From positions 1 to 32,049 of the forward strand of contig WTCE01000037.1 of the NCBI GenBank assembly GCA_013138735.1: 32,049 nt of DNA, given 5' to 3'. The DNA is from Crocinitomix sp. GTDB taxonomy: Bacteria > Bacteroidota > Bacteroidia > Flavobacteriales_D > Crocinitomicaceae. Below the pieces are notes generated by a model. That model was not told the DNA's origin. It saw only the letters and a list, made by a program, of their open reading frames with translations, and ran no database searches. Within the stretch, counting starts at the first letter, position 1; every line of letters begins with the position of its first letter. The position numbers were made by a program, and so were the translations under genes. This document shows, piece by piece, positions 17,410-32,049 of this stretch.

Positions 17410-18549
17410 ATGAAAATTATTTCCATTTTAGGTGCACGTCCTCAGATTATAAAGGCTGCTGCTTTAAGCAGGGCAATTAGAAATCAATATTCGGATGAAA
17501 TTTCTGAAATTATTGTTCATACAGGGCAGCATTATGATGCCAATATGTCTGAGGTCTTTTTTAAAGAATTAAATATCCCAAGTGCCCACTATAACTTAAA
17601 CGTTGGATCTGGAAATCATGGTGAGCAAACAGCCAAGATGCTTGAGGGCATTGAAGCTATAATTTTAAAAGAAAAACCAGAAGCTGTAATTGTTTATGGT
17701 GATACAAATTCAACAGTTGCAGGTGGTTTAGCAGCTTCTAAATTACATATTCCTGTTGTGCACATTGAAGCTGGGCTGCGCTCGTTTAATAAAAAAATGC
17801 CCGAAGAGATTAATAGAATTACTTGTGATCATTTGTCTACATTATTATTTTCACCGACAAAACAGGGTGTTAAAAATTTAAAAAGAGAAGGTTTTGCAAT
17901 TGATAGTGTACCTCCCTATACAATTGATAATCCTAAAGTTTATCATAGCGGAGATGTGATGTACGATAATTCAATTCACTTTTCAGCTATATCAGATCGC
18001 GATTCTACTTTATTAAATCAATTAGAGTTGGATTCAGAATTTATTTTGGCAACAATTCATAGAAATAATAATACAGATAATCCAGATCGTTTAAATTCAA
18101 TTTTTGAAGCGCTGTTGGATATTTCAGAGGTCCATGATATTCAGGTGGTTCTGCCACTGCATCCAAGGACAAAAAAAATGATGGAGCTATATTTGGATGA
18201 TCAACTTGCCAAGAGAATTGCAGACAGTGATTTATTCCTTGTAATACCTCCAGTTTCATTTCTAGATATAATTGCGCTTGAAAAGAAAGCGAATTTCATT
18301 ATTACAGATAGTGGCGGATTGCAAAAAGAAGCTTTCTTTTTTAAAAAGCCGTGCATTATTTTAAGGTCTGAAACCGAATGGGTAGAAATTGTTGAAAATG
18401 GAAATGCGTTGATCTGTGATGCTGACAAAAATAAAATATTGGCCGCATACGATTCATTATCAAAAAAAGAATTGACGTATCCAGATTTATTTGGAGATGG
18501 CAAAGCAGCCGAGTTTATCTGCGAACAAATTGTTAAACACTTAAGTTGA
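17410..18549 (+). CDS. wecB: UDP-N-acetylglucosamine 2-epimerase (non-hydrolysing)
   Basis: A 379-residue cytoplasmic enzyme of the WecB/MnaA family, which interconverts UDP-GlcNAc and UDP-ManNAc for surface polysaccharide synthesis. Visible blocks are GARPQIIKAAAL at the N-terminus, HTGQHYD, VYGDTNSTVAGGLAA, HIEAGLRS, MPEEINRI, HRNNNTDNP and TDSGGLQKEA with the UDP-binding glycines. It is the first gene of a six-gene run; its TGA overlaps the start of the deacetylase gene (TTGA). Related enzymes such as WbpI epimerise substituted sugars, so the exact sugar is not certain. Confidence 0.93.
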   Translation: MKIISILGARPQIIKAAALSRAIRNQYSDEISEIIVHTGQHYDANMSEVFFKELNIPSAHYNLNVGSGNHGEQTAKMLEGIEAIILKEKPEAVIVYGDTNSTVAGGLAASKLHIPVVHIEAGLRSFNKKMPEEINRITCDHLSTLLFSPTKQGVKNLKREGFAIDSVPPYTIDNPKVYHSGDVMYDNSIHFSAISDRDSTLLNQLELDSEFILATIHRNNNTDNPDRLNSIFEALLDISEVHDIQVVLPLHPRTKKMMELYLDDQLAKRIADSDLFLVIPPVSFLDIIALEKKANFIITDSGGLQKEAFFFKKPCIILRSETEWVEIVENGNALICDADKNKILAAYDSLSKKELTYPDLFGDGKAAEFICEQIVKHLS

Positions 18550-19799
18550 TATACATATTCTCTGAACATATTACCCCACGACTAATTTATGTGCTCGATT
18601 TCTGTTTTACAGAAAAAGGACAAACCTATCAGTTGATTTCGACCAAAGAAGAATGGAATAAATTATCCGTAAAATCACTGAATTATTCCAGCCAAGAAAT
18701 AGAAAGCTTATTTCAAATAAAACCGCAAGGAATTTTATTTGAAAGTGAAATTTATCAATCAAAGTCAATCGCCTTAAATGATGGGGATATTGAGATTGAT
18801 GGCGTAAATGATGGTTTAGGCTTTATGTTCTATATGCTTTCAAGATATAAATCCTATTTTTCGCAAAATCTTGATAGCCATGGTAGATTAAATGCAGAAC
18901 AGAATACTTTAGTACAATTAGGTCTTAATAAAGTGGCTGTTTTAGACCGGCTGGTGAAGACTCTTTGGGAAAAGTTAAATTTAGATTATACAAAGGTTCA
19001 AGAAGGATTTAAATTCATTCCAACTTTTGATATTGATATTGCCTGGGCTTATAAAAACCGCAAATTTATGCGATCAGTTGGTGCCATATTTAAAGGTAAG
19101 AAACCAATTGAGCGTTTAAAGGTTTTTGCTGGAATGGCTAAAGATCCGTATGACACTTATGCTGAAATCAGAGATATTGCGTCGAAAACAGAACATATAA
19201 TCTGTTTTACCCTTTTAGGCGACTGGGGAAAATATGATAAAAATATTCATTGGGAAAACTACTCCTATGGTTCTTTGATTAGAGGTTTGAATTTAGAAGG
19301 CGGTTTAGGTATTCATCCGTCTTACGCTTCCTATTTAAATGCAGATAAAGTAGCACTTGAAATCAAGCGTCTTGAGAAGATTACAGGGCATGAAATACAT
19401 AAAAGTAGACAGCATTTTTTACGGCTTAAAATTCCTGAATCCTATGATACTTTATTAAGTTCTGGAATTAAAAGTGACTATACTATGGGTTTTGCGGATG
19501 ACTTTGGCTTTAGAGCAGGAACTTCATTTCCGTTCCACTATTTTGATTTAATCCAAAATAAATCAACAGAATTAATGATTCATCCGTTCGCTTATATGGA
19601 TAGTGCAATGAAAGATTATTTGCATTTGAATCCTGAACAAGCCAAAGCAGTAATTGATGAACTAATTAGCGAAGTTAAAGCAGTAGGTGGTCAGTTTATT
19701 ACGATCTGGCACAATAGTTCTATCCATGATTCTGGTGAATGGAAAGGATGGAAAACCGTGCTTGATTTTACCGTTCAAAAAGGATTGGAAAAGGAATGA
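18546..19799 (+). CDS. Polysaccharide deacetylase family protein with DUF7033-like N-terminus
   Basis: A 417-residue protein. The catalytic NodB-like domain starts around residue 155 with FIPTFDIDIAW (metal-binding TFDxD). HPSYAS, SRQHFLRL and the DYTMGFADDFGFRAG segment are typical of this Bacteroidota group, and IWHNSS is near the end. The first 120 residues match the accessory region seen in the same group (YKSYFSQNLDSHGRLNAEQNTL). The only sensible start is TTG at 18546, overlapping the wecB stop; no ATG occurs before residue about 100. It likely removes N-acetyl groups from an envelope glycan (inference). Confidence 0.85.
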   Translation: MIYIFSEHITPRLIYVLDFCFTEKGQTYQLISTKEEWNKLSVKSLNYSSQEIESLFQIKPQGILFESEIYQSKSIALNDGDIEIDGVNDGLGFMFYMLSRYKSYFSQNLDSHGRLNAEQNTLVQLGLNKVAVLDRLVKTLWEKLNLDYTKVQEGFKFIPTFDIDIAWAYKNRKFMRSVGAIFKGKKPIERLKVFAGMAKDPYDTYAEIRDIASKTEHIICFTLLGDWGKYDKNIHWENYSYGSLIRGLNLEGGLGIHPSYASYLNADKVALEIKRLEKITGHEIHKSRQHFLRLKIPESYDTLLSSGIKSDYTMGFADDFGFRAGTSFPFHYFDLIQNKSTELMIHPFAYMDSAMKDYLHLNPEQAKAVIDELISEVKAVGGQFITIWHNSSIHDSGEWKGWKTVLDFTVQKGLEKE

Positions 19800-20917
19800 G
19801 AAGTTTAAGCATTCTTAGTCTTTTAATAGCATCATTTGCCTTGATGCAATGCGTTCAACATACTGAAGCAACAATAAGCGAAGTTACAAATCAAATTGAA
19901 CAGGAATCGGTTGAGGTAAAATATGCCGAGGGATTTGATATTGTGTACCAAGAAGGTTTTATTAAGGTAATTACGCAATCTTTTGGTGAAAATGCACCTT
20001 TTAGAGATAGTGTCTATATCATGAGTAATTCTGAAAAGGTTTTTGAAACAAAAAGTAAAATCGTCAATCAGGTAACTGTTCGTTTAGCGTGCCAATCTTC
20101 AACGCATTTGTCCTTTTTAGATGAACTAGATCGCTTAGATCAAGTTGTTGCGTTATGTGGCATAAAATATGTCAATAATGCAAAAATTAGTAAAACGTTA
20201 AGCAAAAACGAAGTCATTGAATTATGTATGACAGATCAGGTGCAAATGGAGAACCTCTATCAAAGCAATCCTGATCTATTTTTGATTTACCCTTTTGGTA
20301 GTGCAGAAAGTAATGAATTTTATGATACAGGAATTCAAACATTGTTGATTGCAGAATATTTAGAAGAATCGCAGTTGGCTCGATTAGAATGGATAAAATT
20401 ATTTGGTGTTTTAACCGGCAGAGCCAATGAAGCCAATGCTTATTTTAAAGAAGTGGAGGAAGCTTATTTGAAACTAAAAAATGAAACCCAACCTCTGGAG
20501 AAGACATTTATTATGAATTTGCCTTTTCAAGATCAGTGGTTTACGCCCTCATCAAAATCTGTTGGAGTTGAATTGATAGAGGATGCTGGAATTCAATATT
20601 ACTATCGGAATGAAAAAGGGACCGAGAATATTGTACATTCTAATGAACAGGTATGGAATGACGGAATTCAAGCAGATTATTGGGTAATTATTGCACGACG
20701 ACCAATTGACTTTAAACTAGCCGATTTAATTGCGGAACAGTCTGTCTATAAAGAGTTTTTGTCTGTACAAAATCACCAAGTTATTTTCTGTAATACCAGC
20801 GTAGTGGATTACTTCTCGAAAGGTGTTATAGAGCCACACATAATACTGAAAGATTTGTGTTATGCAACAGGTCAAATTGAATCACATGAGCCACAATATT
20901 TTTTCCTTTTGGAATAG
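19796..20917 (+). CDS. ABC transporter substrate-binding lipoprotein (BtuF/FepB-like)
   Basis: A 373-residue protein with a lipoprotein-like signal peptide (MRSLSILSLLIASFALMQC; the LMQC lipobox is atypical). It then has a class III periplasmic-binding fold: STHLSFLDELDRLDQVVALCGIKYV is the first lobe helix/strand, NPDLFLIYPFGS and TLLIAEYLEESQLARLEWIKLFGVLTGR the linker region, and TFIMNLPFQDQWFTPSSKSVGVELIEDAG the second lobe. It should deliver a siderophore, haem or cobalamin to the permease encoded next. ATGA overlaps the deacetylase stop. Confidence 0.88.
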   Translation: MRSLSILSLLIASFALMQCVQHTEATISEVTNQIEQESVEVKYAEGFDIVYQEGFIKVITQSFGENAPFRDSVYIMSNSEKVFETKSKIVNQVTVRLACQSSTHLSFLDELDRLDQVVALCGIKYVNNAKISKTLSKNEVIELCMTDQVQMENLYQSNPDLFLIYPFGSAESNEFYDTGIQTLLIAEYLEESQLARLEWIKLFGVLTGRANEANAYFKEVEEAYLKLKNETQPLEKTFIMNLPFQDQWFTPSSKSVGVELIEDAGIQYYYRNEKGTENIVHSNEQVWNDGIQADYWVIIARRPIDFKLADLIAEQSVYKEFLSVQNHQVIFCNTSVVDYFSKGVIEPHIILKDLCYATGQIESHEPQYFFLLE

Positions 20918-20939
20918 GGAAGAACTAATGTTACATTTG
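20908..20939 (+). promoter_or_regulatory. Internal promoter before the FecCD permease gene
   Basis: TTTG (20908-20911), a 20-nt spacer and TACATTTG (20932-20939) fit the Bacteroidota consensus exactly. The -33 element overlaps the end of the binding-protein gene; transcription would start near 20946, about 11 nt before the permease ATG at 20957. It may uncouple permease-ATPase expression from the upstream genes. Confidence 0.65.
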
Positions 20940-20956
20940 TCCAGCATTTATTTGTA

Positions 20957-21967
20957 ATGAATTTAAGGTCAGACATAGCATTAATTGGTGTAATAATTCT
21001 TGGAATTTTTATTCTTTTTTGGATGAATCTTCTCTTAGGAGATGTGCCTATGAAATCAGCAGATGTATTCAATCTTTTGGCTGGAGGTACAGCAGATAAT
21101 CCTGCTTGGTCTTATATTGTTGAAAGCAGATTGAATCGTTCAATTGTTGCTATTTTGGCTGGTGGGGCTTTGGCCATATCAGGTTTGATATTACAAGTGT
21201 TTTTTAGAAATCCTTTAGCTGGACCAGGCGTTTTAGGGATAACTTCTGGCGCTTCTTTAGGTGTGGCTGTTGTCGTTTTAGGTGGCGTAACCATGGGGTC
21301 ACTATTGGGAAATTTGGGTATCATCTTGGCCGGAATCATTGGAGCTGTTGCCGTCTTATTTTTGCTCTTATTTATCGCAAGATTTATACGGAACTCTGTT
21401 ACGTTGTTAGTTGCGGGTCTCATGTTCGGTTATTTCACGGCGGCATTAATTAACATACTTTTTCTTTGGGCAAATGAAACGGCTACACGTAAATATGTAG
21501 TTTGGGGCTTAGGAAGTTTTGAAGGTTTAAATCAAAGCGAGTTACTCATTTTTACAACATTAATTATTGTTCTGAGTTTATTGTGCTTTATGCTTGTAAA
21601 ACCACTCAACGCCTTAGTTGCCGGAACCGATTACGCAGCTTCTATAGGAATTAATGTTAAATCAACCCGCCTGCTCATTATACTATTTACTGGTGTACTC
21701 GCCGCGATAGTCACTGTTTATTGCGGCCCAGTAGGATTTATAGGAATCGCCGTTCCACAACTTGTGCGGGTTTTAGTAAAGTCAAAAAATCATGCAGTCA
21801 TTTTACCAGTTGTTTTTATAGCAGGCAGTTTATTGGCGCTTGGCGCAGATTTTATCGTAAGAATGAGCAGTAATAGTTTGCCGTTGAATACGGTTACGGC
21901 AATAGTTGGCGCACCAATCATAATATGGGTAATTGTTAAAATGAATCAACGGAATGTTAGCTTTTAA
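20957..21967 (+). CDS. Iron-siderophore/cobalamin ABC transporter permease (FecCD family)
   Basis: A 336-residue polytopic inner-membrane protein with about ten helices. Family signatures are SRLNRSIVAILAGGALAISGLILQVFFRNPLAGPGVLGITSGA near the N-terminus, VWGLGSFEG in the middle, and the coupling-helix region (STRLLIILFTGVLAAIVTVYCGPVGFIGIAVPQLVR). It forms the channel for the substrate brought by the upstream lipoprotein. The ATPase gene overlaps its end by 14 bp. Confidence 0.94.
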   Translation: MNLRSDIALIGVIILGIFILFWMNLLLGDVPMKSADVFNLLAGGTADNPAWSYIVESRLNRSIVAILAGGALAISGLILQVFFRNPLAGPGVLGITSGASLGVAVVVLGGVTMGSLLGNLGIILAGIIGAVAVLFLLLFIARFIRNSVTLLVAGLMFGYFTAALINILFLWANETATRKYVVWGLGSFEGLNQSELLIFTTLIIVLSLLCFMLVKPLNALVAGTDYAASIGINVKSTRLLIILFTGVLAAIVTVYCGPVGFIGIAVPQLVRVLVKSKNHAVILPVVFIAGSLLALGADFIVRMSSNSLPLNTVTAIVGAPIIIWVIVKMNQRNVSF

Positions 21968-22682
21968 GCAACTTGAAATAAGAGCTGGTGCACGACATTT
22001 ATTTGCCGCAAGCAGTATTCATCTTCGCAATGGTATTGTTGCCTTGGTGGGAAGAAATGGAACAGGTAAATCAACCTTGCTTAAAACAATCATGGGATTG
22101 CACCGCGATTTTTCAGGAGAAATTTTAGTAGATGGTAAATCACTTGACAGTTACAAACCAGCTGATTTGGCGAAAGAAATAGCTATTGTCTATTCAAAAT
22201 CTAACATTTTTGGAAGTCATTCTGGACGTGATGTGCTGATGTTAGGAAGATTACCCTATCAAAATGCCTTCGCAAAAGAAACAGCAGTAGATCGGGAGCA
22301 AGTCAATCGAATTATTGAACTCTTGCAATTAGAAAAATTTATTGATCAAGAATTCTCCGTTTTAAGTGATGGTGAAAAACAATTGATTATGATTGGAAGG
22401 GCAGTGGTGCAAGACACAAAGATTATATTGTTAGATGAACCTGCAGCATTTTTAGATTTGGTAAATCGGCATCAATTGATGCGGGTTTTACAAGAGATTG
22501 CGAAATCAACTGAAAAGCTCATTTTATTTTCGACACATCAAATGGATGTATTGCCCAAAGTGTGTCAATCGGTATTATTGATTGATCAAAATGAATTGCG
22601 TTTAATTGAAGATCCAACAACATTTATTACTACTATTTATAAAAGTTTTGGAATGGATAATTTAGAGACAGATGAAGTTTAG
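21954..22682 (+). CDS. ABC transporter ATP-binding protein (FepC/BtuD-like)
   Basis: A 242-residue ATPase. Walker A is GRNGTGKST, the Q-loop region is IVYSKSNIFGSHSG (the usual Gln is not obvious), the signature is LSDGEKQLIMIGRA (LSGGE variant with Asp), Walker B is IILLDEPAAFLD, and the H-loop is FSTHQMD. It energises the FecCD permease. Overlaps: 14 bp with the permease gene and 11 bp with the GSCFA gene. No TonB receptor gene is nearby. Confidence 0.93.
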   Translation: MLAFKQLEIRAGARHLFAASSIHLRNGIVALVGRNGTGKSTLLKTIMGLHRDFSGEILVDGKSLDSYKPADLAKEIAIVYSKSNIFGSHSGRDVLMLGRLPYQNAFAKETAVDREQVNRIIELLQLEKFIDQEFSVLSDGEKQLIMIGRAVVQDTKIILLDEPAAFLDLVNRHQLMRVLQEIAKSTEKLILFSTHQMDVLPKVCQSVLLIDQNELRLIEDPTTFITTIYKSFGMDNLETDEV

Positions 22683-27567: not shown

Positions 27568-28032
27568 ATGCACAACAGAATTAAAAGCAGGGATCTTAAA
27601 ACTAATAAACAGTTCGCTCTTTGGATAGTTGTTCTAACTTTTTTTAGCATTATTGACATATTTCGGCACTTGATGAGTTCCGAAAGTTATCTACAAATAG
27701 CTTTAAGATGGACGGTTTTTACATTTCTAAACTCATTCACCTTATTGTTGTTAACTTATATTTTTTACAAATTGTTTTGTGATTTTTTTTTAGCCAAAAT
27801 AGCTCAAAAAAGTCTAATAATTAGTTGTCTAATTTTTCTGATTGGTTTTAATATAGGGCTTTGGTGCTATCAATTTTATGGGCCTTTATATATAGACTTG
27901 CTGGGTATAGGGAAACAGTTGACTTTTAATCAGAGTATGGTTCCACATCTTATCATTACACCTCTGATTATATTTATTTGGTTATTAATTAATTTTAAAT
28001 TAGTTCGAAATGGTAGCAATAATGAGTCGTGA
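27568..28032 (+). CDS. Four-helix membrane protein of the peptide locus, unknown function
   Basis: A 154-residue protein with four predicted helices (about 17-37, 48-72, 83-105, 124-146) and a basic N-terminus (MHNRIKSRDLKTNK). It resembles the bare membrane part of LytS-type sensor kinases but has no kinase domain. It overlaps gwsG by 23 bp and so is probably translated with it. It could sense, protect against or help export the peptide, but nothing in the sequence decides this. Confidence 0.65.
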   Translation: MHNRIKSRDLKTNKQFALWIVVLTFFSIIDIFRHLMSSESYLQIALRWTVFTFLNSFTLLLLTYIFYKLFCDFFLAKIAQKSLIISCLIFLIGFNIGLWCYQFYGPLYIDLLGIGKQLTFNQSMVPHLIITPLIIFIWLLINFKLVRNGSNNES

Positions 28033-28993
28033 AGATGATTTTTCAACTTCTGAAGTTATTGAATGGATTAAGTTTTCAGGAGCGAAAGTATTAAGATTGA
28101 ATGAAAAAGATAAATTATCTATTTTAAAATTTGATGTTACCGCTGATGGAAAAATTACGCTATTGATTGAAGTTAAGGGTGAAAAATATTCCATTGATAA
28201 TTTTAATTCTTTTTGGTACCGAAGGGGAAGATTAAATATTGACTCACCTAAAATCAAACTTGAAGAAATAAATGATGACGTATATCGTGATAAAGTCAAA
28301 AGATACTTGAATAATGAAATATCAGTCATTGAAGAGTACATTATCTCATTATTGGAAGAGAAAAAATCTTTGGGAAGTAAATCTCTGGCTTCCATAAATA
28401 AACTAAGGGTTTTAAATGAGGCAAATTCTTGTGGAATTAAGACACCATGGACTTCAGTCGTATCAGATTCAAAATCTATTAATGAAAATAGAGAAAACAT
28501 TCAACGAATGGTAACAAAACCCCTTTCAGATTCATTATATTTTTCACTTAAGACACATGAGAACAAAGATAAATTTTACGGAACTTATACTTCATTAATT
28601 TCGGATCCGTTGCCAGAAAAAATGTTCCCAACGCTCATCCAGGAACAGCTAGATAAAGAATTAGAACTTAGAATTTTTTTTATAAATGAGAGTTTTTATT
28701 CTATGGCCATTTTTTCTCAGTTGGATAAATCTACATCTGTGGATTTTAGGCGATATAATTTGGCCATGCCGAATAGAACAACTCCATTTAAATTGCCTCT
28801 GAAAATTGAAAAAAAACTCATTATGTTGAATAGGAAAATAGGATTAAATACTGGCTCTATTGACATGGTAGTAACTAAAGAAAACGAATTTGTATTACTC
28901 GAAATCAACCCTGTCGGACAATTTGGCATGGTTTCAAAACCTTGTAATTACAAACTTGAAAAAGAGGTGGCAAATTTTTTAATTAAAAAATAA
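28010..28993 (+). CDS. gwsG: Grasp-with-spasm ATP-grasp peptide maturase
   Basis: A 327-residue ATP-grasp ligase of the family that makes graspetides, joining acidic side chains to Thr/Ser/Lys in a precursor by ATP-driven ester or amide links. Signs are the N-terminal VAIMSREDDFSTSEVIEWI (typical of GwsG), FWYRRGR, the ATP-binding VTKPLSDSLYF and LIQEQLDKELELRIFFI (family hinge region), and the Mg-binding end IDMVV...FVLLEINPVGQFGMVS with ExNPxGQF. Start Met1 is preferred over Met5 because it completes the first strand. The precursor lies 1.3 kb downstream. AT-rich like the rest of the locus. Confidence 0.9.
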   Translation: MVAIMSREDDFSTSEVIEWIKFSGAKVLRLNEKDKLSILKFDVTADGKITLLIEVKGEKYSIDNFNSFWYRRGRLNIDSPKIKLEEINDDVYRDKVKRYLNNEISVIEEYIISLLEEKKSLGSKSLASINKLRVLNEANSCGIKTPWTSVVSDSKSINENRENIQRMVTKPLSDSLYFSLKTHENKDKFYGTYTSLISDPLPEKMFPTLIQEQLDKELELRIFFINESFYSMAIFSQLDKSTSVDFRRYNLAMPNRTTPFKLPLKIEKKLIMLNRKIGLNTGSIDMVVTKENEFVLLEINPVGQFGMVSKPCNYKLEKEVANFLIKK

Positions 28994-28995
28994 AT

Positions 28996-29217
28996 ATGGA
29001 AGACAAGGAACTCGTCATTGAGCAAATAAAAAAGACTAAGAATATTCCACTAGCATTAATCGGTCTAGAGCCTATGACACACGACGATTCTCGTCAGTTT
29101 GTAAAATACATTGAAAACAGGTCGTGCGATACAAGAAAATATATTGCAATTGATTCAATTAAACCGATTTCAAGAGTTTTTAATTTAAAAAAGATAAGAG
29201 ATGACTGGGAAGATTAA
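28996..29217 (+). CDS. Small protein between gwsG and gwsS (73 aa), unknown function
   Basis: A 73-residue soluble, charged protein (MEDKELVIEQIKKTKNIPLALIG...). It starts 2 bp after gwsG and overlaps gwsS by 17 bp, so it is embedded in the maturation operon. It has one Cys, no double-glycine leader and no Thr/acid-rich core, so it does not look like a substrate. The size would suit a leader-recognition (RRE-like) or scaffold protein, but I see no sequence match to either. Confidence 0.65.
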   Translation: MEDKELVIEQIKKTKNIPLALIGLEPMTHDDSRQFVKYIENRSCDTRKYIAIDSIKPISRVFNLKKIRDDWED

Positions 29218-30214
29218 ATTATTTTCGTCATGTGTAATTGTGAAAGGTGCTGGTCGTTCAACTATTTGCGATTTTCAGCGCCAAGCGATTAAGTTTATTC
29301 CTAATTCTCTATATGATATTTTAGAAAAACATCAAGGTAAATCGTTCCAAGAAATCGTAGTTATATATGGGCAAAATCATTTTGATACCATAAAAGAATA
29401 TTTCAAATTTCTTTTAGAGAATGAATTCGCATTTTTAACTAAAAACCCTGAATATTTTCCAGAATTAGACAAGTCTTGGGAATCCGCTTCCCTAATAACA
29501 AATGCAATAATCGACTTGGATAAAAACTCTGATCACGATTATTTTGACATTCTCGAACAATTGAGTGAATTAGGTTGCAAGCATCTCGAATTTAGATCTT
29601 TTGACCCTCTTAGTTTGGGGGAAATTGAAGACATACTGCGACATTTAAATACCAGTGGAATTTGTTCGGTAGATCTAATCATAGAATTTTCAGAGAAATA
29701 CAATATGAATGATTTTGAAGAGTTCATTAGGAGCTATCTTCGTGTTTCAACTATATCTATTCACTCTTCACCAAATAATAAAGCTGTTATGAGAAAAAGT
29801 GAAGGAGATCCGGCAGATATTTTTTTCTATAAGGAAAAAATTAAGAGTAGTGACCATTGCGGTATAATTAGTTCCGAGTATTTTACTGTTAATCAGGAGT
29901 TCTACTTAGAATCATTAAACTTTAACTCGTGTTTGAATAAAAAAATATCCATTGATGTAGACGGTAATATCAAAAATTGTCCATCAATGAAGGAGAGCTA
30001 TGGTAAAATTAAAGATATTTCATTGAAAAATGTATTGGCGATAAGTAAGTATAATGATTATTACCTAATAACTAAAGACGACATAGATGTTTGTAAAGAT
30101 TGTGAATTTAGATACATATGTACTGATTGTCGAGCATTTGTGGAGAATGGAAAATATTCAAAACCAAAAAAATGCTCATATAGCCCATATAGTATGGAAT
30201 GGTTAGATGAATGA
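29201..30214 (+). CDS. gwsS: Grasp-with-spasm SPASM-domain peptide maturase
   Basis: A 337-residue protein of the SPASM partner family of GwsG. The start MTGKIKLFSSCVIVKGAGRSTICDFQRQ and FIPNSLYDILE are typical. The C-terminal SPASM region has Cys ligands NSCLNKKISIDVDGNIKNCPSM and VCKDCEFRYICTDC plus a late KKCSYSPYSMEW. The canonical radical-SAM CxxxCxxC cluster motif is absent. The centre keeps a barrel-like pattern (HLEFRSFDPLS, DLIIEFS, TISIHSS). It may bind precursor or iron-sulfur clusters rather than cleave SAM. It overlaps the 73-aa gene and ends 55 bp before the precursor gene. Confidence 0.9.
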   Translation: MTGKIKLFSSCVIVKGAGRSTICDFQRQAIKFIPNSLYDILEKHQGKSFQEIVVIYGQNHFDTIKEYFKFLLENEFAFLTKNPEYFPELDKSWESASLITNAIIDLDKNSDHDYFDILEQLSELGCKHLEFRSFDPLSLGEIEDILRHLNTSGICSVDLIIEFSEKYNMNDFEEFIRSYLRVSTISIHSSPNNKAVMRKSEGDPADIFFYKEKIKSSDHCGIISSEYFTVNQEFYLESLNFNSCLNKKISIDVDGNIKNCPSMKESYGKIKDISLKNVLAISKYNDYYLITKDDIDVCKDCEFRYICTDCRAFVENGKYSKPKKCSYSPYSMEWLDE

Positions 30215-30269
30215 AAAGGGGAAGTCGAAAACCAAATAGAGTAGACAATATTTTTAATTAATATAAATT

Positions 30270-30467
30270 ATGGAAAAGTTGAAGATTTCGAAATTCAAAA
30301 ATGAAGAATTGGAATTGAATGAGCAAATTGCCACCCGAGGGGGACTACCTGGGGGCACTACTCATACTTGTGGTACAACTCATAACAATGTTTCAACTTG
30401 GTTTGGCTGGGATTCTGAACCAGGAGAGGTTACACATGATTGTAAACATGATGAAACAGGTAAATAA
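30270..30467 (+). CDS. Graspetide precursor peptide with double-Gly leader
   Basis: A 65-residue peptide. The leader (1-25, MEKLKISKFKNEELELNEQ then IATRGG) resembles Bacteroidota precursors cleaved after GG by C39-type peptidases. The core (26-65) has a TTHTCGTTHNN segment, two Cys, nine Thr or Ser and seven Asp or Glu (SEPGEVTHDCKHDE), giving both donors and acceptors for ATP-grasp side-chain links. It is the last gene of the maturation operon, unlike many such loci where it comes first. No exporter gene follows; an IS begins 44 bp later. Confidence 0.85.
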   Translation: MEKLKISKFKNEELELNEQIATRGGLPGGTTHTCGTTHNNVSTWFGWDSEPGEVTHDCKHDETGK

Positions 30468-30518
30468 TAACAGAATAGTTTAATTGTGTTATTACCATTC
30501 AAAGGTGATTGTGGTCTA

Positions 30519-30538
30519 GCCCCCTATAAATCGGACAA
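30519..30538 (+). repeat. IS3 left inverted repeat, inner block
   Basis: gccccctataaatcggacaa; the reversed right end (about 32024-32042) reads gccccctaaatagtcgga, so the repeats share GCCCCCT and TCGGACAA with small differences and one indel between. Confidence 0.7.
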
Positions 30539-30585
30539 AATCATTTTGGTTATCAATAATACGAAAAATTCGTCATAAATTTGTG

Positions 30586-31674
30586 TCAGCAAGATACGAC
30601 TGACGGTTCTTTTTGTACTGAAAGTTGATTTAGAGACATGGCGCCATTCTCTTTAGATGAATTCTCCAGCCTATCGAAGGCTAGAGAATTCAAGCAAGAT
30701 ACTTCCTTCAAATCCTTATTCCCTGAAATTTGATGGTAGGGTATTAGGAGTTTGAATTTTATTTTTTTCTTAGGAAGTTCTATCCTTTTAATATTACCAA
30801 GTTCCCATTGCTGCCAAAAAGTCATTGGAGGCAAGTTAGCGATAGAGCCATGTAAACGAACCTGATTGTATTTTATGTAAAACAGCGCTAAATGAATTTC
30901 CGCTTGCTCTAAAGTCTCAAAGTGTTTTTGATCTAGCGATTTACCTAATATGGCATGAAAGGACTCTATATGTCCATTTTCTTGAGGTGTATAAGGGTGA
31001 GTAAATACTTGATTAAGGTGATTTGCCTCAAAAAATTCTTGCACCATCTTAGCTGAAAATCTAGGGTCGTTGTCATTTCTAACTTCTATGGATATTCCTT
31101 TTTCAAGCATATCATTAGCTTGTAGATGATTTGTGATCACCGATTCCCAAATGTGTTTTACCGTGTGCTGGGTAATTGAAAAACCGATATGCCATTCTAA
31201 AGCTGTGCGTGTAAAAACGTCCAAAACAGTGAGGATAAAAGCGTGTCGTCTCTGTTGTTCTATCCAAACAAACTTAATATCCATTTCTAACATCTCAAGT
31301 GGTATTGATGGTGTTAATATTCGATATTTAGCATAATTTTTCTTAACCTTTTCCCGGGTTAATAAGAGCTGATTTTCGCGCATTAAACGATATACTTTTT
31401 TGTGATTGATTTGAAATCCTTCTATTTGTAATTCTGCTGTCATCCTACGGTAACCATAGGTTAGGTCTGGATCCGAGTGGTTGTGTTCAATGTGGTCAAC
31501 CACTTGAGAATTCGGACAGTTATTTTGCTTCCCATTCTTAATCCGTATGGTTTCCATGCTAGGTTTTGCACCCCGTTTTTTTCCTTTAAATGATTTATAA
31601 TAAAATTGATGACGAGTGATCCCTGTTAATTCAAATGCACGATCTCTTTTCATTCCCAAAGCAACGTAGCGCAT
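30586..31674 (-). CDS. IS3-family transposase OrfB (DDE integrase)
   Basis: A 362-residue protein: N-terminal HTH_21-type region (YGYRRMTAELQIEGFQINHKKVYRLM) followed by the rve integrase core. The catalytic residues are Asp in LEMDIKFVW, Asp in EVRNDNDPRF, and Glu in ENGHIESFHA, all present. Its ATG shares one base with the stop of orfA (TAATG). It is probably made as an OrfAB fusion by frameshifting at 31707-31713. It catalyses cut/copy and strand transfer of the element. Confidence 0.93.
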   Translation of the reverse strand: MRYVALGMKRDRAFELTGITRHQFYYKSFKGKKRGAKPSMETIRIKNGKQNNCPNSQVVDHIEHNHSDPDLTYGYRRMTAELQIEGFQINHKKVYRLMRENQLLLTREKVKKNYAKYRILTPSIPLEMLEMDIKFVWIEQQRRHAFILTVLDVFTRTALEWHIGFSITQHTVKHIWESVITNHLQANDMLEKGISIEVRNDNDPRFSAKMVQEFFEANHLNQVFTHPYTPQENGHIESFHAILGKSLDQKHFETLEQAEIHLALFYIKYNQVRLHGSIANLPPMTFWQQWELGNIKRIELPKKKIKFKLLIPYHQISGNKDLKEVSCLNSLAFDRLENSSKENGAMSLNQLSVQKEPSVVSC

Positions 31675-31994
31675 TACGAGTACTTTCTTTTCACCTTGGG
31701 ATATTTCTTTTTTAGCAGTTCGTCCTTTAGCCGGCTTTCAATTTCCTTTTCTGCTAAAAGTTGTTTGAGCAACTCAACTTCTTGTTCTAGCTCACCTATT
31801 TTTTGAAGCCGTTCTTTGGTTATTCCATGGTCTAAACCTTGTTCGCCCATGGACTCAAACTTCTTCTTCCAGGCATAAAACGTTGCCGGATAAATACTAT
31901 GTTTGGCCAATGTGATGGTCACACCATTAATTCCAGCTTCTTTTAAAATGCTGATTTTTTCTTCTTTGGTAAATTTCCTTCTTTTCATTGTCAT
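31674..31994 (-). CDS. IS3-family OrfA (HTH DNA-binding protein)
   Basis: A 106-residue protein with a helix-turn-helix (KFTKEEKISILKEAG...TLAKHSIYPATFYAWKKKF) and a C-terminal leucine zipper/coiled coil (IGELEQEVELLKQLLAEKEIE), which binds the IS ends and mediates multimerisation. The frame ends in KRKYS then TAA. Confidence 0.93.
   Translation of the reverse strand: MTMKRRKFTKEEKISILKEAGINGVTITLAKHSIYPATFYAWKKKFESMGEQGLDHGITKERLQKIGELEQEVELLKQLLAEKEIESRLKDELLKKKYPKVKRKYS
31707..31713 (-). promoter_or_regulatory. Programmed -1 frameshift site A_AAA_AAG
   Basis: Within orfA the codons CTA AAA AAG give the slippery heptamer A_AAA_AAG in the right phase. A -1 slip continues GAA ATA TCC CAA GGT ... 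GTA ATG CGC with no stop, entering the orfB frame. An SD-like AAAGGA lies about 9 nt upstream of the heptamer, as seen in some IS3 elements and dnaX. Confidence 0.8.
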
Positions 31995-32049
31995 AAAGAT
32001 TACAGTTTTTTTTGTATAATCTTGTCCGACTATTTAGGGGGCGGAAACA

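Follow-up and report, generated by a model that had tools for sequence, protein, structure and literature searches.

A grasp-with-spasm graspetide cluster of Crocinitomix sp. and its SPASM protein without a radical SAM motif

Does the run of five open reading frames (ORFs) at positions 27568-30467 of a Crocinitomix sp. contig encode a new kind of graspetide system, or is it an ordinary member of a known one? The window, meaning the whole stretch of DNA analysed, is the entire contig C36 (32,049 bp), one of the 188 that make up a 6.84-Mb genome. The original prediction, made from the sequence alone, had seen a grasp-with-spasm graspetide locus with the ATP-grasp ligase GwsG, the SPASM protein GwsS and a double-glycine (GG) precursor, in an unusual gene order and with two integral partners, a protein of 73 amino acids (aa) and one with four hydrophobic segments (4-TM). 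Our results establish that the locus is an ordinary grasp-with-spasm cluster, a normal member of a known system; most of the evidence for novelty dissolves, and what remains is one more predicted graspetide locus, whose product is, judged from its genes, probably a cross-linked peptide. We read it, with a probability of roughly 0.6, as a cluster of the published 'branch 5' type in which GwsS provides the leader-binding scaffold, GwsG is the ligase, the 73-aa protein is an adaptor or activator of the LPL type, and export relies on a C39 transporter encoded elsewhere.

The identity of the locus is secured by family scores above the NCBIfam cut-offs, 313.5 bits for GwsG against TIGR04192 (cut-off 230) and 322 bits for GwsS against TIGR04193 (cut-off 175), and by the GG peptide encoded 3' of gwsS in the same gene run. 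The predicted positions of the five ORFs (Table 1) are likewise exact, as are the overlaps of 23 bp between the 154-aa 4-TM ORF and gwsG (28010-28032) and of 17 bp between the 73-aa ORF and gwsS (29201-29217); gwsS starts 208 bp past the end of gwsG on the same strand. Structures related to GwsG by sequence are the microviridin-type ligase 5ig9 (E 1.7e-24) and CdnC (7mgv, E 3.7e-20). Synonymous codon use gave z values of 4.3 for GwsG, 2.0 for GwsS, 1.0 for the 73-aa protein, 3.5 for the precursor and 5.9 for truA, and of -0.8 for the 154-aa ORF. The 4-TM protein, the 73-aa protein and the precursor matched nothing above cut-off in NCBIfam and Pfam, and matches to a Bacteroidota-type promoter pattern were no commoner than in shuffled sequence.

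Table 1. Coordinates in the window of the graspetide gene run and of the insertion sequence behind it.
Feature	Position	Strand	Basis
Orphan 154-aa ORF, four hydrophobic segments ("4-TM")	27568-28032	+	ORF list, hydrophobicity
gwsG, graspetide ATP-grasp ligase, predicted to form macrolactones/macrolactams	28010-28993	+	TIGR04192
LPL-type small partner, 73 aa (IPL ... KPISR)	28996-29217	+	profile match
gwsS, SPASM protein without radical SAM motif	29201-30214	+	TIGR04193
GwsS residues ~1-80, RRE-like winged-helix domain	29201-29440	+	Foldseek; limits approximate, from predicted secondary structure
GwsS SPASM region, cysteine sets 298/301/307/325 and 220/244/260/310	29858-30211	+	
GG precursor peptide, 65 aa	30270-30467	+	ORF, leader likeness to C134 precursor, codon z
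IS3-type insertion sequence, TG...CA ends	30512-32049	OrfB 30586-31674 (-), OrfA 31674-31994 (-)	Pfam

How common this arrangement is was assessed in a survey that combined the best 80 of 354 GwsG relatives from a genome collection with 29 new loci from 200 family genomes (34 with a match, 18 above cut-off) and, together with the window and stretches from its own genome, comprised 118 GwsG-like ORFs, some loci being in both collections. Bacteroidota names, the phylum being our assignment, stand on 75 of the 80 fetched loci; the others (L040, L082, L088, L095 and L096) come from contigs whose labels point outside this phylum, namely to Thermoanaerobaculum (two), Gemmatimonadetes, Armatimonadetes and Nannocystis. 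GwsS is encoded on the same strand within 700 bp of GwsG in 106 of the 118 cases, and in all but two of these pairs (L078 and L082) an ORF of at least 45 aa lies between the two genes. The twelve GwsG without GwsS are pieces from the window's own genome (two each in L013 and L014), ORFs at or close to locus ends (the second copy of L024, and L031, L084 and L103) and weak ATP-grasp proteins (L122-L125). The order gwsG, small ORF, gwsS is thus shared by 104 of 106 pairs, and the claim that it is unusual was rejected. A precursor in last place is a minority layout, though not a new one, since contig C134 of the same genome shows it too. Among the 74 loci with enough flank, a small ORF with the GG pattern was found only upstream in 41, only downstream in 7, on both sides in 2 and nowhere in 24, this simple pattern having a background of 11 opposite-strand matches. 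Visual inspection leaves four of the seven downstream precursors that look real (the window, C134, L030 and L077), and precursor copies flank the genes on both sides in L048 and L072.

The layout agrees with the Bacteroidetes 'branch 5' loci of a 2022 survey, which, in the part of it available to us, are described as encoding an ATP-grasp protein, a SPASM protein, GG precursors and LPL proteins (PMC8939145), and which we, by an equation of our own, take to be probably group 14 of PMC13097080, a source likewise available in part. Branch 5 and the window have in common the TIGR04192 ATP-grasp protein, the TIGR04193 SPASM protein, an LPL-type small protein whose gene immediately precedes that of the SPASM protein, and a GG precursor. 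They differ in that the precursor of the window lies downstream of gwsS, the usual place being upstream, that no 'cluster 23' protein was recognised in the window, and that the window has the extra orphan ORF upstream.

Although it had been described as an uncharacterised partner, the 73-aa protein is not specific to this locus and matches a family that occupies this position in almost every locus of the survey. Against a profile of 103 same-position proteins from which it had been left out, it scored 22.1 bits (E 1.6e-6); no other ORF of the window did as well, the next having an E value of 0.091. Where several ORFs lay between gwsG and gwsS, one with a KPIS-like end had been preferred for this profile, and one pick, from L080, is really a precursor; it stayed in the profile and was replaced in an alignment of 71 proteins, which includes that of the window and leaves out that of C134, a short ORF of L073 and ORFs longer than 86 aa. 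A profile of this alignment finds the C134 protein in the genome (E 1.9e-7) and does not match the same-position protein of contig C156, which may be divergent or unrelated; some of the same-position ORFs (100 distinct proteins in all) are probably unrelated, as PMC8939145 also says. Of the 71 proteins, 69 retain the LP-motif proline and 62 the KPIS lysine, 7 having arginine instead, and the C-terminal KPIS(K/R) is common to the 73-aa protein and the surveyed same-position proteins. In size, position and its proline-containing N-terminal motif the protein fits the LPL family described in 2022, from which it differs by having IPL in place of LPL (PMC8939145); position, motif and size are what this identity rests on. 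According to the same source LPL genes always immediately precede the SPASM gene, and their products either have a PqqD-like function or interact with the ligase, both being proposals; thus both the protein and a likely auxiliary role are already in print. That the partners are integral is thus upheld for the 73-aa protein and not confirmed for the 4-TM protein. By the prediction's own refuting condition, homologues in relatives that lack these partners, the 4-TM protein is refuted as a general partner and the 73-aa protein survives. Two candidate assignments were dropped: a match to DUF5889 (17.8 bits, cut-off 27.1) is taken as chance because none of the other 71-alignment members has it, and a role as a locus-specific immunity protein does not agree with a same-place family in nearly all surveyed loci.

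It is GwsS that gives the cluster its wider interest. The 2022 survey, in the part available, places the family among radical SAM enzymes, with thioether formation as the suggested chemistry (PMC8939145), yet the CX3CX2C motif is absent from the first 250 residues of all 102 distinct GwsS proteins checked, that of the window included, while 98 of the 102 have SPASM-like cysteine spacing near the C-terminus. We aligned 77 complete GwsS proteins (at least 110 bits, shorter than 430 aa; weaker ones left out). None of them has a radical SAM Pfam match at E <= 0.01, 42 have the Pfam SPASM domain at that threshold, and only one contains a looser cysteine triad ahead of the SPASM region. In residues 96-125, after the first barrel strand, 60 have no cysteine, 15 have one and two have two. 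By contrast with the missing motif, cysteines 298, 301, 307 and 325 are kept in 77 of 77, and cysteines 220, 244, 260 and 310 in 67, being jointly lost in the same ten proteins (L027, L042, L045, L049, L050, L057, L070, L077, L080 and L081), a pattern suggestive of an obligatory Fe-S site in the family and a second one that is optional; the SPASM cysteines of the window's GwsS are 244, 260, 298, 301, 307, 310 and 325, and against the TIGR04085 SPASM model it scores 27 bits, exactly the cut-off of 27.

The AlphaFold2 model of GwsS (pLDDT 94.6, pTM 0.89) begins with four strands and three helices, continues with four strands with three helices between them and ends with SPASM. Searched with Foldseek, it resembles the sactipeptide-synthase entries 5why (E 7e-7), which we take to be CteB, and 5wgg, as well as SuiB (5v1q, E 4e-5), and its N-terminal part resembles 5v1v_A, that is TbiB1 with leader, presumably a stand-alone RRE (probability 1.00, TM-score 0.66 of the target, root mean square deviation (rmsd) 2.6). 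Sactipeptide-type radical SAM/SPASM maturases are built of an RRE, a barrel and a SPASM domain, and the same order is seen in the GwsS model; what sets GwsS apart from them is the lack of CX3CX2C, a shorter barrel as modelled and low TM-scores. The entry 5wgg is CteB as well (PMC10352776, as far as the consulted part of that source goes). A sequence search of the PDB with GwsS returned only a designed barrel (E 0.002). This predicted fold makes the N-terminal RRE-like domain of GwsS a better candidate for leader recognition than the 73-aa protein, for which that role had been considered. Since the motif is absent, the cysteine sites are kept and the model resembles sactipeptide synthases domain by domain, we propose as the most likely role of GwsS that of an Fe-S scaffold that binds the leader for GwsG, rather than that of a radical enzyme. 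We did not meet this reading in the titles and abstract openings that were searched, most subscription journals lying outside them, and do not claim that it is unpublished. If GwsS is non-radical, the chemistry to be expected of these Bacteroidota clusters changes. As a separate observation, the same genome holds a weak GwsS-like protein (7409-8512 of L015, contig C31; 102 bits against TIGR04193, below cut-off) on a contig that has no TIGR04192 match, and similar weak matches occur in two same-genus genomes (G007 and G008), which have no TIGR04192 match either.

How might such a cluster work? The RRE-like N-terminal domain of GwsS would hold the leader of the precursor, and GwsG would activate Asp and Glu side chains of the core and join them to Thr or Ser (or Lys) as esters or amides, one water being lost per link. 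GwsS, which keeps the cysteines for two Fe-S sites, the one invariant and the other optional, would act as a scaffold and not as a radical enzyme, and the LPL protein would bridge to GwsG or activate it. The leader would finally be cut at GG and the product leave through a C39 peptidase-ABC transporter encoded elsewhere.

Several observations weigh against this reading. In the window's GwsS itself Pfam does not find the SPASM domain at E <= 0.01. The protein does have NCBIfam matches below cut-off to radical SAM/SPASM families, among them rad_SAM_trio and XyeB; almost all of these fall within the SPASM part, but a PqqE model matches residues 112-156, again below cut-off (13.7 bits, E 0.022). 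The matches to 5why, 5wgg and SuiB have TM-scores of 0.28-0.40 and rmsd values of 10-16, and therefore only the domain order agrees and no single rigid fold, while the RRE match to 5v1v_A on its own has an E value of 0.029. AlphaFold places no clusters in its models, and GwsS may have a redox role that does not involve SAM. On the side of the small partner, the motif of the window's protein, IPLALIGL, is a weak version of the LPL family pattern, and the model of the protein, in which a helix (4-13), two strands and a second helix (64-72) are predicted at low confidence (pLDDT 78.7, pTM 0.36), has no PDB structure match at E <= 10; its role is thus a guess, and a PDB sequence search with it gave one match at E 0.68. 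Finally, as detailed below, a local C39 transporter is present in about half of the surveyed loci, and export in trans is therefore not the rule.

Comparison with other graspetide ligases places the cluster further. GwsG is by its sequence an ATP-grasp ligase like those of the microviridin and CdnC type, from whose systems the window differs in a precursor without a PFFARFL-type motif and in the additional partners GwsS and LPL. The rosaritide synthetase MirB needs a partner, MirC, with a domain weakly resembling an RRE, according to the consulted part of PMC13097080; a ligase with an RRE-like partner is common to both systems, the dependence being a supposition in the case of the window, and MirC is a divergent peptidyl-prolyl isomerase whereas GwsS is a SPASM protein.

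The precursor carries GG at residues 24-25 and again at 28-29, and its core is rich in Thr, Ser, Asp and Glu and contains two Cys. It is 39% identical, over the alignment, to a 62-aa GG peptide encoded at the same place in C134 and matches no NCBIfam or Pfam family at E <= 1. Such a match is not a defining feature, because only 8 of the branch 5 precursor clusters match known precursor models and 79 do not (PMC8939145). Pattern selection near loci with GwsS gave 100 distinct GG ORFs, none of which has a PFFARFL-like motif; in the window's own genome the precursors of contig C70 carry PFFAKFL, and that contig gave no GwsS or LPL match. Many LPL proteins have sequences of the kind LPLFYRK, LPLFYNYL or YPLNYKFV. 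One might imagine, as a tentative and rather unlikely extension of the scaffold reading, that the leader function is split, GwsS being a dead radical SAM/SPASM protein that serves as Fe-S RRE scaffold, and LPL supplying in trans a P-h-x-h-(R/K/N)-h-h motif that switches on the ligase and that, in microviridin-type graspetides, is part of the precursor's leader; LPL as supplier of the activating motif in trans is hinted at in the available part of PMC8939145. A heptamer with all five features occurs in 15 of 96 LPL heptamers as compared to 7 of 10,300 controls, a comparison that is circular, and serves as an idea only, because the pattern was designed after the LPL consensus and the microviridin motif were known; 4 of 100 LPL proteins have no such heptamer. 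If the split is real, widespread proteins published as radical enzymes are non-radical.

But what of the 4-TM ORF, which had been taken for an integral partner? No relative of it lies beside any other surveyed GwsG (114 loci), including the two other clusters of the same genome with a small ORF between gwsG and gwsS, on C134 and C156. Upstream sequence of 600 bp or more was available for 114 GwsG ORFs, and in three cases it encodes, within 500 bp, a protein of at least three hydrophobic segments, namely the one in the window and two C39-ABC transporters. Eight other genomes of the genus contain no homologue. Partial matches were seen in 398 other genomes of the order (seven, best E 7.3e-4, five with internal stops) and in 394 other genomes of the class (three, each within a frame of 1,025-1,030 aa, best E 4.5e-4), none of them credible, these genome samples overlapping in part; there was no match in 72,556 plasmids. 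A match to DUF2070 was below threshold (8.3 bits). Membership of the graspetide system is thus not supported by conservation, and the ORF is an orphan whose possible role in immunity or export lacks backing.

It may well be, at somewhat less than even odds, that the ORF is no gene at all, or that it is a membrane gene without relation to the cluster whose end falls at gwsG by accident. Codon use unsupportive of a gene and the lack of homologues in order, class and plasmids favour this, as does the consideration that hydrophobic ORFs can come from T-rich DNA. On the other hand, none of 1000 mononucleotide shuffles of the region contained a plus-strand ORF of 154 codons, the longest having 113, and orphan genes can look just like this. 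That length, the same-direction 23-bp overlap with gwsG and the lack of a C39 or HlyD domain on the contig would fit a protein dedicated to immunity or export that this lineage has recruited and that is translationally coupled to gwsG. We regard this as possible yet doubtful, given its absence at C134, C156 and every other surveyed GwsG, the failure to find a credible homologue in order and class, and the codon use.

The apparent absence of an exporter was a further reason to think the locus unusual. Contig C36 indeed contains neither a C39 domain (PF03412) nor an HlyD_3 domain (PF13437). As a mark of novelty this absence carries little, because of the 54 surveyed loci that have long flanks, 28 gave a phmmer match to the C39 parts of two retrieved transporters and the other 26 did not (a regular expression had given 10 of 54, which is too low), and the downstream side is cut by an insertion sequence. 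The window thus differs from about half of the surveyed loci, and the opposite notion, that such loci usually lack exporters, was dropped on the same count. In two surveyed loci a C39-ABC gene lies directly upstream of gwsG, and group 14 is described in the consulted part of PMC13097080 as having a high co-occurrence with peptidase-type transporters. Within the window's own genome no C39 match was obtained by phmmer in the stretches around the C36, C134 and C156 clusters. Four C39 domains were found across the genome, two on C28 and one each on C126 and C156; one of the four is in a 749-aa frame, and that of C156 is about 32 kb from the cluster on the same contig. The HlyD_3 domains of the genome lie on contigs other than C36 and C109.

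Two readings concern the chemistry of the leader and the core. The 2022 proposal that LPL serves GwsS as a PqqD-like chaperone for the leader (PMC8939145) agrees with its place beside the SPASM gene in nearly all pairs; we nevertheless consider it unlikely, as an RRE/PqqD-like fold is already predicted in GwsS and the low-confidence LPL model, with its two helices and two strands, does not look like a winged helix and matches no PDB structure. An active radical GwsS that adds thioether, C-C or C-O links, with the core cysteines as donors, is quite improbable: the published label and thioether suggestion (PMC8939145), the two Cys of the core, the likeness of the model to active radical SAM/SPASM enzymes and the weak NCBIfam matches are outweighed by 102 proteins without CX3CX2C, 77 without a radical SAM Pfam match and the near-lack of cysteines in residues 96-125.

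The downstream side of the cluster could not be seen in the window because an insertion sequence (IS) begins 44 bp past the precursor, at 30512, and the contig stops at its terminus. The element is of the IS3 type (Pfam rve, rve_3, HTH_21 and HTH_Tnp_1) and is not part of the graspetide system; it is present in multiple copies, seven other contig ends matching one end of it, and it is by these copies that the assembly is fragmented. The left IS flank in the window ends in GATTG, and C109 has GATTG right past the element; C87 and C69 pair likewise by CCAGT. These flanks suggest that the element makes a 5-bp target duplication, which two pairs of contig ends fit, and C109 is, by the shared GATTG and with one other pair as precedent, the likely continuation of the window. 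The ends of C75, C131, C136 and C187 found no partner at 5 bp, while C187 begins with ATTG and would fit a 4-bp duplication. No exporter was seen among the ORFs of C109 (at least 60 aa in the first 6 kb, at least 110 aa beyond 8 kb) or of C187 (first 6 kb), and neither contig has a C39 or HlyD_3 domain.

Elsewhere in the genome TIGR04192 matches at six places, four of them above cut-off, and TIGR04193 at four, three above cut-off. The order on C134 is gwsG, a 66-aa protein, gwsS and precursor, and on C156 precursor, gwsG, a 67-aa protein and gwsS. Behind gwsS on C156 (L012, 5466-6716, minus strand) lies a gene for a likely lipoprotein of 416 aa with homologues in L030, L061, L066 and L075, which may be the published 'cluster 23'. 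On C62 (L013, 2-1401) a GwsG is cut by the contig end, its match has one in-frame stop, and two small ORFs of leader type, one with GG and one with GA, lie upstream. The cluster on C70 (L014, 8269-11116) is of the microviridin type; it has a pair of ATP-grasp genes and a pair of precursors, the latter with PFFAKFL in the leader and repeats of (M/L)KYPSD(S/A)DE in the core. In the window itself, genes for a periplasmic binding protein (PF01497), a permease and an ATPase (19796-22682), by eye a system for the uptake of metallophores or cobalamin, adjoin genes for a DUF7033 protein (PF23019) and, at 17410-18549, an ORF that by eye is WecB-like.

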